Assembly (NCBI RefSeq): GCF_048128805.1
Contig: NC_136012.1
Span: 11,717,725 to 11,781,724, forward strand
Direction of reading: 5' to 3'
DNA: 64,000 bases
DNA from: Centroberyx gerrardi
Taxonomy: Eukaryota; Chordata; Actinopteri; Beryciformes; Berycidae
Each line of letters begins with the position of its first letter. The first letter of the stretch is position 1. Both the position numbers and the translations under genes were made by a program. Below, one piece after another: positions 1,641 to 57,681 of the stretch. The notes under the pieces are model-generated. The model had not been told where the DNA came from. It saw nothing but the letters and a program-made list of their open reading frames with translations, and ran no database searches.

Positions 1641-4600
1641 ATGGAGGCTGTGATTGGACTGTTGATGGTGCTACTTGGAGTCTCTCATGGTGAGCTCTTT
1701 CACTAGTCGACACATTAATATTCATGAGTGTATATAGTGTGAGTAAACTGTTTTGTGTTGAACCAGTAATCCATACTTTTGAATGAATACAAATACAGGA
1801 TAATTATTGATCAAGTATAGTCATGACCTCATCTTCAGTGATGTTTACTGAAGCTGAATGAGCTTCTCTGGCTGGAAATGAGCCGTGTGTCCTGGAGAAT
1901 CGCCCGCTTTTGTCGATAAATTCATTTACAAAAATCTATTCACAACTAGCGTGAAAGTGATATTTGAGATTCTTGAAGGTTCAGTAGCTTTTTATCACTA
2001 GTCATTATTTTTTAAGTAGCAACAGTGCAGGAATTCAGAAATTAATTTAACAGAAGTAGGCTATGCATCGAAATATCCTGGTACAGCCCACTACACATTA
2101 ATGATATTTTCAGGACTGCAGCTCTTGACCTTTGACAGTTTGTATCTTTAATTAAGAATAGAAGGTGAGCAATAGTAGAGTACAAATCTAGCACAGGAAC
2201 TACCAAGGCAAGACAGCGGTCTAGCATGGTCTAGTTTGTCTGGACCTCAGCTCTTCTTCTCTTCCCTCCTCTTCTGCACGTTAGAGCTGGCTTACATTCA
2301 AACCAGAACTCTATTTTCCCCCTATAACTAGGGATCACTGGAATTGATTCCTCACAGTATTCTCACTGTAAAAAAAGAAAGAATGTCACTTCATTAAACT
2401 GTCAAAAATGTAATCAGTAATAATAATAATAATAATAAAATGTATTCTTCCACCAAACAATATAGTTTTTGAACAGTAGCTAAACAGCTGATACTAGTAT
2501 GAGTTGTGATTTACAGTTAGTGTATGAATATGTAAATGAACTGTCACAGTCACAGGTGTTTGTGTGGCTGCGTTGCCCAAGAATAACCTTCTGTCTGCAT
2601 ACTGTGGTCTGAGAGTCAGTTACACCTATTATTCACAAATATATCCCTATAGTTTCATATTCAATACATTAATATGTGCACATGCCTACAATCTTGCAGC
2701 GGTCATTAATGTTGCTGCTGGCATTGTAAGAAATGGATACAGATTGTGATATTTACTTTTTTTTCGTCTTGTGTTTTTTTAATTTCCAGGTGTGGAAACC
2801 TCCTGTGATGGGAGACAGGACACAACTCAGTGTTATGGCGCTCTGGGAGGAACTGTGGGTATTCAGCTGATTACTGAAGCCACAAACCTCACTTTCGATT
2901 GGCTTAAAAATCAAACATTCAAAATTCTCTCTGTGAGAAACAATATTGTTCGGGTTAATAAGTTAAAAAACAGATCCTCCCTTACTCTCAGTAATGGAAC
3001 ATTTAGGATAAGTAACCTCAGCTACACTGACAGTGCTGAATATTCCCTTAAAATCTTCAATTTAGATGGACGGGAAACAGAAAACCGAGAACTAAACATG
3101 TCCATACAAGGTAAATAAGTACTTTAATGAATTGTTGGAGAAATTAGTAATAATGATAGACCACATATTCCAGTATCTCATAGCCACTTGTCAATTTCCA
3201 GCACAAAATAGAAGGCATGCAGTCTCGGTTTGGGCTTTTGGGAACAAACAATGTCTGTTAGTAATATAACTGTCAATAATGTGATGTGTGATTAATATAA
3301 TTTATATAATATAATTCAGTGTCAGTAATATGATTTTACAGATTACAGATAAATTAGTAAAAACGAATTCTGCAATATTAAACTAGTTGAGTGAGCTATA
3401 CATTTTACCATTTGCAAACAAATGCAACAGTACCATGACAAAAATACAGTTGTACATCACTGTTGCTTGAAAATCCAATGTTGGTAATTTTCATGTTTTC
3501 ACTTTAATTGAAGGATTACGTGCTCCTCCATGGGTTAAGAACATTTTCATACCTCTTGGGTTTTATGAAACCCTTTTAAAAACCCACTCGATAAACTCAA
3601 AAATGCACGGTGGTCAAGCTCAAACAAGGCAGTTTTTCTGAGTTCCTGAAAAGTTGACATTTTGGAGACAAGGTTTTCACACAACAGTGACGACATACTG
3701 ACTTAGACCATACGGCTCAAAGAAATTGCATTGACAAAAAATTCTGCCAATGTCCAAACTCATCTGAGTCGATTTCCCCCAGCGCCTGTGTCCACTCCCC
3801 AGCTGGACGATGAGTGTCTGCCCCAGGGAGAGGTGAAGGTGTCCTGCTCCTCTGAGGCGGGGGACAGTCATCAGTACAGCTGGACTCTGGACGGACAAAC
3901 ACTGCCGGACACCGTGCTCCGCTTTCCTGATAGCACAACAAACACCATCACTCTGAGACCAGGCCTGACGGGACAGCTTGACTGCTTGGTCAAGAATAAC
4001 ATCAATAATGCCACTGCAAGCAAGAACATATCAATCTGTAAAGGTGAGCCAGAACATATGAAAAAGTGTGATGTTGATGAACGTGACACCGATGATTATG
4101 ATGACGTGCCTGTCGTATTTGCCCACAGGCTTCACGTGGGATAACTGCACCTTATCCAATGGGACACGGGTAGAGCGGGTGGTGCGTGAAGTCGATGCCC
4201 AGTGTCCTAATTTAACAACAGCTGCAACCACGACCCAAGAAACTTCAAGTGAGGCCACCACCACGGGTAAGGAGACTGGCACGACAGAGTCCGCCGTTAG
4301 ATCCTCCACTCACATCATATCCTCCAATCACACCTCGGCCGTCAAACCCACAGACCAACCATGGTACATTAGTAAGTGATGATTCATTCACTGATGTCAT
4401 TTTCTTTTTGTATTTGTCTTTGCATCTCCTGGCGAGCACATTTAGCAATCAGCAGGCTAACTCAGTACCCTCTGTGATCTCTTGTCATTTGAACAGGACA
4501 CATCCTGCCCATCGCTGGCTCTCTGTCGGTGATGGTCGTTCTCTTAGTGGTTGTGGTGGGAGTCCGCTGTGTTCTGATGAAAAAGAAGAAGAAGGAAGGA

Positions 4601-5151
4601 ACAAGGAAGGAACAAGGTCCACAAAACAAATTTTTTTTTCACTCGTCATCGCTGCATTCAGAGCGCTTTGAGAATTTGCTCTTTTGTATTCACAGTAGGG
4701 TGTGTACGTATCTGCTGTTGCTAATGATATAGGCTGCAGTTCATCCCCAGATGTGCTCAGTGTGAGGAGAACCGACAGACAGCATGGCTTACACTGAACA
4801 CATGCAGCACCTTTGCTTGCTATCACTGGGCCTTTTGTGATCGTGCCATGTTTAATGTGACATGTTTTGGCCACCGATTGACCTCCGTCCCTCCTCTCCG
4901 CAGAGAGCGAAGACGCCCAGGACGTGACCTACGCTGACGTCCGGATCATGCAGCGTCAGGCGAAGCCGCGGCAGGAAAAGGCCCACATGGAGGTGGAGTA
5001 CGGCCAGGTCAAGGTGTCGGGGGGACGCAGGCAGCCCGCCGAGGCCCAGTTGGAGGTGGAGTACGGCCAGGTGAAGGTGTCGGGGAGGCGCAGGCAGCCC
5101 GCCGAACCGACTGAGGACGACTGCGTGTACGCCAAGGTGGTGAAGAGATAA
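1641..5151 (+). CDS. SLAM/CD2-like Ig-superfamily receptor with cytoplasmic ITIMs
   Basis: Six exons join in frame: 1641-1689, 2790-3110, 3783-4043, 4129-4371, 4497-4616, 4904-5151 (413 residues). Every junction is phase 1, as is usual for Ig-domain exons. Exon 1 encodes a hydrophobic signal peptide. Exon 2 (about residues 17-123) is a V-type domain without the usual disulfide, with YSL where a Y-x-C would be expected. Exon 3 (to about 210) is a C2 domain with four cysteines; this pair of domains is the pattern of the CD2/SLAM family. Exon 4 is a Thr/Ser-rich stalk with N-glycosylation sites. Exon 5 holds one membrane segment (about 294-315) followed by a lysine cluster. The tail carries VTYADV (Tyr341) and VEYGQV twice (Tyr364, Tyr385), which fit the ITIM pattern, plus CVYAKV (Tyr407). 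An inhibitory leukocyte surface receptor recruiting SH2 phosphatases is inferred. True SLAM receptors carry TxYxxV/I motifs, absent here, so the exact family member is unresolved. The exon-5 donor (GTCCAC) is weak but is the only one that keeps frame. Confidence 0.82.
3460..3690 (+). repeat. Dispersed repeat family R1, copy 1 (intronic)
   Basis: This intron segment matches 35065-35285 (same strand) and 48230-48450 (opposite strand). Shared landmarks in order are GAAGGATTAC, TGCTCCTC, CTTGGG, TTATGAAACCC, ATAAACTCAAA, GGTCAAGCT and AAGGTTTTCAC. I found no terminal repeats and cannot assign a class. Confidence 0.65.
4987..5112 (+). repeat. 63-bp coding tandem duplication carrying an ITIM
   Basis: Two head-to-tail 21-codon units (4987-5049 and 5050-5112) in the last exon of the Ig receptor. 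Each encodes VEYGQVKVSG followed by an Arg/Gln/Pro-rich linker. The first 56 bases of the two units differ at only four positions, so the copy is fairly recent. The duplication raises the number of ITIM-like tyrosines from two to three. Confidence 0.9.
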
Positions 5152-6246: not shown

Positions 6247-6547
6247 CCTCCGCCAAGGAGGTTATGTTTTCGGTGCCGTTTGTTTGTTTGTCTGTTTGTC
6301 TGTTTGTTTGTCTGTTTGTTTGTCTGTTTGTTTGTCTGTTTGTTTGTCTGTTTGTTTGTCTGTTTGTTTGTCTGTTTGTTTGTCTGTTTGTTTGTCTGTT
6401 AGCAGGATTACGGAAAAACTACTGGCCTGATTTTCATGAAACTTTGTGGAAGGGTGTAGCATGGGCCAAGGAAGAACCCATTAAATTTTGGAGCAGATCC
6501 GGATCTGACTCACAAACAAGCAATAATAGCACGAACCTTGGTGGAGG
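6247..6547. mobile_element. Short inverted-repeat (MITE-like) element with internal microsatellite
   Basis: It begins with CCTCCGCCAAGG (6247-6258) and ends with CCTTGGTGGAGG (6536-6547), the reverse complement with one mismatch. The interior holds a long TGTT/TGTC microsatellite, then a segment starting near 6402 that I recognise as a widely dispersed fish repeat (AGCAGGATTACGGAAAAACT). The element may extend about 25 bases past the right terminus (CTCTCCGAGTGCCCTTCTAG). It has no coding capacity. The superfamily is not determined. Confidence 0.6.
6279..6400. repeat. (TGTTTGTCTGTT)n-type microsatellite
   Basis: About 120 bases of TGTT and TGTC tetramers, mostly as an 8-base unit TGTTTGTC. 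On the minus strand it reads as a Thr-Asp-Lys-Gln repeat with no stop, which produces false ORFs in both directions. It sits inside the inverted-repeat element at 6247-6547. Confidence 0.9.
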
Positions 6548-9287: not shown

Positions 9288-12200
9288 CTAGTATTCCTCC
9301 GATATCGTGTCGGACAAAATGTTGCTGCTGGGGCTGGTTGCCATGGGAGCGTCGGTGGGGCCGCCCGGCACAGGTGGGGTGGGAGTGGTGGTGGAGGCCT
9401 GCTGGGAGAGCTGCAGCTTCTTCCGGTTTAACTTCCGTTCTTTGGCGCGCCTGTTCTGGAACCATATCTTCACCTGAACCACAGACAGATCAACATCAAT
9501 ATACACTATACACAGAATCTATCAGCGCTATGGCAACGAAGAGTCGCATGATAAAAACGGCATTGGATCGCCACTGGTTTTCATTGTAGCCTGTTAATAA
9601 AACAATTACTCTTTCTCACGCTTGCCTCTGTGCTATCTCTTACACTGTTATATATCATCAATGTGTGATGATCAATGAATTCCAGGAGGTATTTTGTAGT
9701 GAAGTGTTGTTATTTACTTTTCTGGTGGACCCACTTTCCCTCAAGCTGCCTCGTCTACTTCTACTCCAGTTAGTGATTTCCCACATGCCTGGACTTGTTG
9801 CATTCTGCTGTAGGTTTTATGTGTAAGAGAGAGAGCAACAGTGATGGTGATTGCATTGTAAGCGCAAGAGAGCGAGAGTTTCTTCTTCTTCTTTTTTCTA
9901 TTTCTGCATCTTCTACATTGGATTTCTCCCCGTGTGATTGTTGAATGTCGGTGCAAAACGGCGGCTGTAGAAAGAAGCCCTTGCTCTTTGATTGTGAGGG
10001 ACTGACACCAGAACCTGACGTTTACTGCTTATGATTTAGATAGCTGAAAAGTTTTTTGCTATTACAGTAAACTCCATTGTAGCAGTGCTGGAAGTATCTC
10101 AAAGTGACATCACATCGCTGTCTATGTTTAGCCAGTTATCCATGGAAGAAGAAAAATACACCACCAATCAACAAACATCGCCAACAATTGTATTTTTTTT
10201 AACAGTGTTAAAGTGTTTGAAGTCAGATTTTGTCCTTTCAGTTCTCTCCTATCTTTAACTGTCATCCGTCCAACTGACTCTCACCTGTTCCTCTGCTTCT
10301 CACCTGTCTCTCTTGCCAATTTCTCCACCTCTCCTGTGTTTTCCTCTCACCTGTCTCTCTTACCTATTTCTCCACCTCTCCACCTCTCCTGTGTGTGTTC
10401 TTCTCACCTGTCTCTCTTGCCAATTTCTCCACCTCTCCTGTGTGTTTTCCTCTCACCTGTCTCTCTTACCTATTTCTCCACCTCTCCGCCTCTCCTGTGT
10501 GTGTTCCTCTCACCTGTCTCTCTGAGAGGCTCAGGCCCTGCGACAGTTCGGTCTTCCTCCTGATGGTGATGTAGCGGCTGAACTGAAACTCCTTCTCCAG
10601 CTCCAGCCGCTGGTGGTCGGTGTACACCACCCGGTACTTGTCTTTAGTGCGAGTCTTCCCTCCTGGATCAGCAACAACAACAAGGCTGAATGAGTAAAGG
10701 AATGGATACCGGCTTGATTGATTGATGAATTGACTGAGTGGGTGCGTGTGAGTGGGTGAGTTCTTCCTTCTGTATGTGTGTTAGGTCTTCACTCCTAACA
10801 CGAACTAGAACAGTTAGTATTTCAGTGAGTCATGTTCAGACTGCTAATTTGAAGATGTCTGGTGCCACGTTCAAGTTCAGGCGCCGCTTAAAGCCTCATC
10901 AGCCCTATTAATCATGTGCACCACAGCTAATGCAAAGACTCCCCACAGCATTGCAACAGCGGCTCTCCTTATCGCTGTGAGTGGTGTTTACATAGGTGTT
11001 TACACAGGCAGCTATTCATTGACACGCATGTACACGCGCACACACTCTTGGGAAGGGAATGAGGGGTGAGTCAGTGTTATTGATCTGCAGGAGAAGTCGT
11101 GACTGCACCATGGGACGGCATTGATTGAGGCAGGACACACACGCACACACACACACACATACACACACACACATCAGTGAGGCCTGTGGATTCCCCCCGG
11201 TAGAGGAGATTCAGTTTGTCTCAACCAGACTTCCTGTACCGTCAGTGTTATCTAGCCATCTTGTCACCCTTCAGCACCCACCCAGTGGACAGAGAGGGTG
11301 GGGAGCGACACTTTGCAGACTCCGTGGCTTCCACTGTTAGCTTTGCATTGACATCTTACACCATGCTGGCGGAAGGGAGAAGTGTAAAGCCAGCGCTTGA
11401 TAATAATAATGACAATAACAGATATGCGTGTGTGTGGTCTGTCCCCCCTTTGTGCAATATGTTGAAACTGTTGCTGAATGTGTCAATGGAAATGTGTTTA
11501 ATTTCCTCTGTCATCTGTACCTACTCAAGAGCTGACATATCACTTTGTCATGTGACTGATAGAGGAAGTAGAGCTATTTTCATAAATTGTCAGATAATGT
11601 TTGAAAAATACATCAACTAGAAAATTCTTAAAGATAGTTATAGGGTAAGTGTTATAGATTACACCTTTCCTCCTAACCCATTAATATGTAGAAAATCTAA
11701 TTAACCCCATGTAGGTAGGCCTGTGGTGTGTTTGTATTGTGTTCACACTAATTATAACGCAAAAAAGGTTTGACAGGTCTTATCAACTGTTCGAACAACT
11801 TCAGATAAGCCCTGTAAGAGTTGTTTCTATGTCAAAGGAACTGTAAGAATCTCATAATACAAGTCTTAAATTTTCCATTGATATAATACAAGGATGAATT
11901 GTTATTGTATGCAAGTATGTCATTACAACATATATAATACACATCATATTGTGGGCCTTCTCTTGTCTAATGTTTTTTTTCTCCAGTATGTTCCATAATG
12001 AAGTGAAGCCCCACCTGAAACTGCCGGGTGCCCACTTTGTCTGACCCATTCATATGATTTCCTCCTGGAGGAGTTGGGGGAGTCCTGCCCGGGGGGGAAG
12101 CTGTAAGCGGTGAAAGACGCCCCTCCGGCGGCGGTAGGCATGCCGGTCAAGTCCGGGGAAGTGAAGCTGACCTGTACGCTGTTGGGACTTGACCCCGGGA

Positions 12201-12453
12201 AGCCGTGACCGTACGGTGAATACTCCTCCCGGGCCGCCGCGTAAGCCGGGGTCCAGGCACCTGTCGACGGGTTGTTATGGAGCAAGTCACCGACTCCCGG
12301 GACGTGATGATAACCGGTGAAATCTCCATACGGCGGCGGGATGTACTGATTGTTCAGTGACAATGTCTGCGCCGGGTGTCTCGCCGGGTGTGAGTTGGAG
12401 TACATGCCGGTGTCCTGGTCCGAAAGGTAGGCTTTAACTCTCAGGTGTATCAA
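9288..12453 (-). CDS. cdx1: Caudal-type homeobox transcription factor Cdx1
   Basis: Three minus-strand exons join in frame: 12015-12453, 10514-10662 and 9288-9473 (257 residues). Exon 1 encodes the Cdx N-terminal activation region ([10 protein letters not shown] at the start, [10 protein letters not shown] in the middle) and the YEW hexapeptide-like motif just before the splice. Exons 2 and 3 encode the homeodomain (about residues 150-211): [20 protein letters not shown], then [16 protein letters not shown], with the intron between Gln196 and Val197 exactly where Cdx genes have it. The C terminus has ASTTTPTPP and ends in EEY. Cdx factors bind TTTAT-type sites and control posterior Hox genes and intestinal fate. 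Position beside pdgfrb matches human CDX1. Whether it is the 1a or 1b fish duplicate is unresolved. Helix 2 is unusual (TELSQGLSL). The ATG at 12453 is the only in-frame start before the conserved block. Confidence 0.93.
10270..10523. repeat. Minisatellite built from the cdx1 exon-2 splice donor
   Basis: The 15-mer CTCACCTGTCTCTCT (minus strand AGAGAGACAG|GTGAG) occurs at 10299, 10346, 10403, 10452 and 10509. The last copy is the real donor of cdx1 exon 2. A variant copy lies near 10278. Spacings alternate 47, 57, 49 and 57 bases, so the higher-order unit is about 106 bases. Confidence 0.88.
11134..11174. repeat. (CA)n microsatellite in cdx1 intron 1
   Basis: About 40 bases of nearly uninterrupted CA dinucleotides with a few substitutions. 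No coding content. Confidence 0.85.

Positions 12454-46264: not shown

Positions 46265-57681
<11,417 letters not shown>

Follow-up and report, generated by a model that had tools for sequence, protein, structure and literature searches.

A minisatellite across the exon 2/intron 2 boundary of a Centroberyx gerrardi cdx1 gene carries repeated copies of the splice donor

Introduction

How does the spliceosome choose a donor when several identical ones lie close together? The question is raised by a 64,000-nucleotide stretch of the Centroberyx gerrardi genome (assembly GCF_048128805.1, contig NC_136012.1, positions 11,717,725 to 11,781,724; hereafter the window), in which the donor of exon 2 of cdx1, a gut-and-tail gene, is repeated in a minisatellite that runs into intron 2. 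With six copies of the donor about 20–60 bases apart, the cdx1 array provides a clean natural test of spliceosome choice among identical sites, and the test is set in a developmental gene in which any wrong choice leads to the same dead end. The array is probably an exon/intron-boundary minisatellite of the kind known in amphioxus as a 'mirage', with decoy donors that are mostly silent.

The cdx1 gene and its donor array

The gene at 9288–12405 is a caudal-type (Cdx) homeobox gene, with both a Caudal activation region and a Cdx homeodomain. It lies on the minus strand and consists of the coding part of exon 1 (12015–12405, 391 nt, donor CAG|GTGGGG), exon 2 (10514–10662, 149 nt, donor CAG|GTGAGA) and the coding part of exon 3 (9288–9473, placed by exon joining and translation). 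Joining 12405–12015, 10662–10514 and 9473–9288 gives an intact frame of 241 amino acids, and intron 2 is 1040 nt long. In a profile search the product matches the Pfam families Caudal_act (3.3e-21), which spans protein residues 1–128, and homeodomain (2.3e-20), of which exon 2 encodes the part up to the Q before VKIWFQ. The six solved-structure chains closest to the homeodomain are all CDX-2 or CDX-1.

Reading of the minus strand across 9600–11400 places the end of exon 2 at ...CTCTCAGAGAGACAG|GTGAGAGGAACAC. The window contains exactly five copies of the 15-mer across this donor, AGAGAGACAGGTGAG, all of them on the minus strand: at 10509–10523 (the true donor, last exon base 10514), 10452–10466, 10403–10417, 10346–10360 and 10299–10313, successive copies being spaced 57, 49, 57 and 47 bases apart. 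Tandem Repeats Finder (TRF) reports a 106-base unit in 2.2 copies with 96% matches at 10296–10523; the basic unit of the array is thus a dimer of 57+49 bases, repeated about twice. Unit 0 (10467–10523, 57 nt) contains the final 10 exonic bases, the true donor and the start of intron 2, and unit 1 (10418–10466, 49 nt) contains the first decoy, with its last 'exon' base at 10457. Unit 2 (10361–10417, 57 nt; decoy 10408) has 2/57 differences from unit 0, and the sole change in unit 3 (10314–10360, 47 nt; decoy 10351) relative to unit 1 is a 2-base deletion. The core of unit 4 (10299–10313; decoy 10304) is followed by a loss of resemblance to the other units about 18 nt in, and a diverged sixth copy of the 15-mer lies at 10280–10294, with 2/15 mismatches and a 9-base donor that is still identical (decoy 10285). 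Two further donor-like sites of the form TAG|GTAAGA are found on the same strand at 10464–10472 (last 'exon' base 10470; scoring 8.9 bits, where the true donor reaches 11.2) and 10358–10366 (last 'exon' base 10364).

The first-pass annotation of this DNA had named the gene as cdx1, with its exon number and donor position, and had described four further exact copies of the 15 bases at 47–57-base spacing. Exon joining, the Pfam domains and the closest chains agree with the former, and the exact search of the window with the latter; the coordinates, spacings and stop codon given there were all correct, while one strong and two weaker decoys were missing from its count.

The nonamer CAG|GTGAGA is present six times on the minus strand of the window, as the true donor and five decoys (last 'exon' bases 10457, 10408, 10351, 10304 and 10285), and not at all on the plus strand. 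All six sites fit within 240 nt. Their 9-base donor scores, which use human base frequencies, are equal, as are their predicted U1 duplex energies of -12.7 kcal/mol each.

Origin of the array

The assembly containing the window (778.9 Mb in 278 contigs, representing one assembled haplotype) was searched for related genes. A homeodomain search gave 101 matches, among which three loci stand out on exon-2 identity: the cdx1 gene of the window (88%), a cdx1b-like gene on contig C11 at 1.14 Mb (locus L005; 86%) and a cdx4-like gene on C16 at 17.6 Mb (locus L006; 81%), the two paralogues being named by similarity and neighbours rather than from a tree. In the cdx1b-like gene exon 2 ends with TCAGAGAGACAG, the same 12 bases as in cdx1, and is followed by GTAGAT. 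Its intron contains no array: in 600 nt there are no occurrences of GAGACAG and none of CAGGTGAG, versus four and five in cdx1. Exon 2 of the cdx4-like gene ends with the similar TCGGAAAGACAG, followed by GTAGGC, and no repeat is visible in the stretch inspected after it. The boundary between exon 2 and intron 2 is located at the same codon in all three genes.

Since the paralogues share the exon end and lack the array, the exonic bases within the repeats appear to be old and the array to have been made from the boundary. A 20-base probe of the repeat unit matches the genome exactly at three places, every one of them in the cdx1 array. The sequence comparison supports well an origin of the array in a tandem duplication that spanned the exon/intron boundary, and the array-free exon ends of the two paralogues lend the same support to the earlier suggestion that the array had grown from the splice site itself. 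Both the structure of the array and its boundary origin are, on this evidence, very probably as described here.

The likely course of events can be outlined. A local tandem duplication, with its upstream edge 10 bases inside exon 2, would have copied the end of the exon, the donor and about 40–47 bases of the intron. An early duplication would have given the 57+49-base pair, and a later duplication of this dimer would have doubled it, although we infer the order and timing of these steps. Aligned with each other, units 0–1 and units 2–3 have 102 identities, 2 mismatches and one 2-base gap, a likeness that suggests recent growth; the 96% dimer identity, from one assembled haplotype, is compatible with recent change.

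The window also contains exons of a PDGFRB-like kinase at about 36–42 kb and of a CSF1R-like kinase at about 53–57 kb. Teleost genomes are described as having a D1 paralogon with cdx1a, pdgfrb1 and csf1ra and a D2 paralogon with cdx1b, pdgfrb2 and csf1rb (PMC2020491). These neighbours fit D1, yet D2 also has pdgfrb2 and csf1rb next to cdx1b. The gene may be called cdx1a for convenience, a tentative assignment from similarity and neighbours.

Rarity of repeated donors

In 100 dinucleotide shuffles of the window, the 15-mer never reached six matches (mean 0.25). On the two strands of the window together, sixteen sites equal or exceed the true donor in score, six of them in the array. No two of the 7 high-scoring sites on the plus strand fall within one 260-base stretch, and the minus strand of the window has no further cluster of three.

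Exon ends of the receptor-kinase genes were used as a control. There were 26 of these, 24 obtained from kinase matches and two (50834 and 51085) by reading the sequence; 7 with no site reaching 4 bits were dropped, leaving 19 inferred donors. Equal-or-better sites within 260 nt downstream are absent for 15 of the donors, with one such site for 2 and two for the remaining 2. Exon 2 of cdx1 is followed by five sites within the same distance, and none is found there after exon 1 of cdx1 or after exon 2 of either the cdx1b-like or the cdx4-like gene.

Consequences of decoy use

By conceptual translation, the protein would break off after one and the same residue whichever of the seven decoys was used, giving a product of 195 amino acids instead of 241 that has no homeodomain recognition helix. 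Read-through of the true donor meets an in-frame TAA at 10466–10468; this is the stop that had been predicted after 15 codons, and translation of the decoy products confirms the cut inside the homeodomain that had been predicted with it. For the decoy at 10470 the TAA is replaced by a TGA spanning the new junction, leaving the final residue unchanged.

Use of the decoys would extend exon 2 to 193–378 nt, and an exon in this range is of ordinary size and recognisable. The stop is located at the last junction for decoy 10470, 9 nt upstream of it for decoy 10457, and 58, 102, 115, 162 and 181 nt upstream for the others. By the 50–55-nt rule for nonsense-mediated decay, five of the seven decoy mRNAs are candidates, the 58-nt one narrowly, provided that no exon follows exon 3.

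Are the decoys used?

We favour the reading, with some reservation, that the decoys are mostly silent. Splicing would chiefly use the true donor at 10514, because it is the sole copy with a whole coding exon immediately upstream. There would be at most low leakage into a single kind of dead-end product, and the cdx1 reading frame stays intact. Leaky splicing and silencing of the decoys through exon definition had both been put forward in the first-pass annotation as possibilities.

Several observations weigh against this. The five CAG decoys match the true donor in score and in U1 pairing. In classic minigene work, intron-proximal copies among equal donors can reportedly win. The repeats of a human minisatellite, in IFI6, are described as being used as donors (PMC4526556), and for human tandem repeats at exon boundaries most cases are reported to have transcripts that retain the repeat in the exon (PMC2812944). 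Tandem arrays of CAGGTGAGA units are present elsewhere in the genome, so the motif itself may be prone to expansion. RNA folding leans weakly the other way: the true donor has a predicted unpaired probability of 0.57, against 0.22–0.53 at the other CAG|GTGAGA sites, while the TAG|GTAAGA site at 10470 is above it at 0.63. Folding was dropped as a basis of donor choice, the differences in accessibility being small. In units 0–3, none of the 16 columns of the 16-base core varies, versus 5 of 31 other gap-free columns; this possible hint of constraint on the decoy core was dropped as not significant (Fisher p = 0.15).

It is conceivable, although unlikely, that decoy use is meaningful, leaky or regulated, with the length of the array tuning the amount of productive cdx1 mRNA, possibly differently between individuals. 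The equality of the five decoys with the true donor speaks for such a poison extension, as does the convergence of seven decoys on one and the same 195-residue truncation through an extended exon of ordinary size, and both IFI6 (PMC4526556) and the repeat-retaining human transcripts (PMC2812944) provide precedents. However, the amphioxus mirages are reported without disturbance of splicing (PMC3087553, PMC3902484), and selection against strong leakage would be expected in a developmental homeobox gene, though a paralogue exists. A more specific form, in which U1 occupancy moves between the true donor and its copies so that repeat number sets the level of productive mRNA, is decidedly improbable. 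If it were true, an intronic minisatellite would give individuals or tissues differing Cdx1 dosage.

Still less probable is a role for the repeats as a landing cluster for the U1 small nuclear ribonucleoprotein (snRNP), which would remain uncut and aid the definition of exon 2 or block premature polyadenylation. Six identical donors, each with the predicted -12.7 kcal/mol duplex and all within 240 nt, would suit this purpose, and suppression of polyadenylation by U1 is described (PMC3826338). Against this, the cdx1b-like and cdx4-like paralogues manage without such an array, and there would be little need for protection in an intron of only 1040 nt.

The possibility that a generic purine-rich minisatellite landed here by chance, its likeness to the exon end being owed to common CAGGTGAGA-type repeats, is very improbable and already disfavoured. 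The triple CAGGTGAGA pattern is indeed far commoner genome-wide than its reversed pattern (386 forward and 435 reverse places versus 6 and 19). Among the matches listed, it forms seven clusters on C1–C3, of which four lie within the initial 2 Mb of C3. Inspection of sequence and open frames by eye revealed no clear exon at the first copy in any of the seven, the one on C2 at 38.168 Mb being doubtful. Chance would nevertheless have to account for the 10 exonic bases that stand in exact donor register in all four intronic 15-mers and recur in the cdx1b-like paralogue, and for a unit probe that matches only this array. An assembly artefact, with a wrong number of repeats, is equally hard to credit, as the array of about 240 bases lies within a 30 Mb contig, is shorter than ordinary long reads and has units that can be told apart by substitutions and indels.

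Other repeats in the window and genome

Three other tandem repeats were seen in the window. One of the introns of the CSF1R-like gene, a short one, has a tandem duplication of 57 bases at 50577–50693 (2.1 copies, 100% identical), which copies the region upstream of the acceptor and comes within a few bases of the inferred acceptor TCTAG|GGCTGCG; this is a second boundary-side duplication in the window. At 4979–5105 on the plus strand, within about 2783–5148, an in-frame tandem duplication of 63 bases (2.0 copies, 92%) is located in a gene adjoining cdx1 that is likely to encode an immunoglobulin-type receptor, with V-set and Ig_3 matches below the curated cut-offs. The duplicated part, which has no Pfam match, doubles the stretch VEYGQVKV, which we take to resemble an immunoreceptor tyrosine-based inhibitory motif (ITIM). 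Between this gene and cdx1, at 6278–6400, lies the 12-base repeat GTTTGTTTGTCT (10.2 copies, 97% matches).

Elsewhere in the genome, at C2:38164000–38171500 (locus L057), an array of the 10-base unit CAGGTGAGAC directly follows a stretch that looks coding (ETATESGAAAAPSSVTEQ, one frame) and could be donor-seeded. The triple CAGGTAAGT pattern has 1276 and 1559 places on the two strands, versus 0 and 2 for the reversed-pattern control, and all the places among the matches listed fall in a single satellite on C10 (28432665–28461000; loci L060–L062). The satellite was seen at 28.4327–28.4413, 28.445–28.446 and 28.460–28.461 Mb and perhaps extends over at least 28 kb. In its units of about 50 bases, some 9 bases are often flanked by an acceptor-like TTTTGTTTCCACAG and a CAG|GTAAGT donor, and two 1-kb samples contain 25 and 21 CAGGTAAG sites, so that near-complete splice signals are present within the array. 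A genome-wide class of donor-seeded arrays was considered and dropped: the listed places belong to a few dense arrays, for which the reversed-pattern control cannot correct. The pattern counts are not independent events, and no conclusion is drawn from them on a general preference for donor motifs.

Comparison with known systems

The relevant literature that we found on mirage minisatellites consists of two lancelet papers (PMC3087553, PMC3902484). Between them they describe mirages in the amphioxus genes Adh3, BflGb6 and BflGb9 (both globins), TnC and PGBD5, the last two being added by the latter paper. The unit of a mirage joins exonic and intronic sequence over a splice boundary, and in cdx1 each of the four intronic copies carries 10 exonic bases and a donor; the duplicates of a mirage bear splice signals, and the cdx1 array has six CAG|GTGAGA sites, including the true donor. 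The 10–72 bp units of the Adh3 mirage bracket the 47–57 bp of cdx1. The cdx1 array differs in being found in a fish, in a homeobox gene and with just 10 exonic bases per unit. For the globin mirages, unit lengths and haplotype length differences are given, and reverse transcription–polymerase chain reaction (RT-PCR) suggests that regular splicing is unaffected (PMC3087553); mirages are likewise described as leaving regular splicing undisturbed in PMC3902484.

The published mirage cases, on balance, lean towards normal splicing, with IFI6 as a counter-example. The minisatellite of this gene has a unit of 12 nt. As in cdx1, where the donor-like sites are seen at the level of sequence, a vertebrate minisatellite supplies splice donors. 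The alternative products of IFI6 are described as distinct isoforms, whereas those of the cdx1 decoys would all be truncated after the same residue. In IFI6 (6-16), two downstream repeat units are described as serving as donors, giving three mRNAs (PMC4526556).

Human variable tandem repeats with units of about 30 bp, in 4 copies on average, are reported to alter exon/intron structure, some of them at the boundary; these occur in recent paralogues of segmental duplications and are said to form novel introns or lengthen exons (PMC2812944). They are also of minisatellite scale; in cdx1, by contrast, the array sits in an old intron and has not altered the coding sequence. Intron gain through tandem duplication of AGGT-containing segments has been described (PMC4974935) and resembles the cdx1 array in that tandem duplication copies splice signals. 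Such a gain was ruled out for intron 2 of cdx1: the cdx1b-like and cdx4-like genes have an intron at the same codon, and hence no new intron was made.

We do not claim the cdx1 array as the first in vertebrates, IFI6 and the human boundary repeats being related cases. It is a new example of a kind already known from lancelets and human genes, in which a boundary-duplicating minisatellite like those of lancelets is now shown in a fish, next to a paralogue that displays the array-free state.
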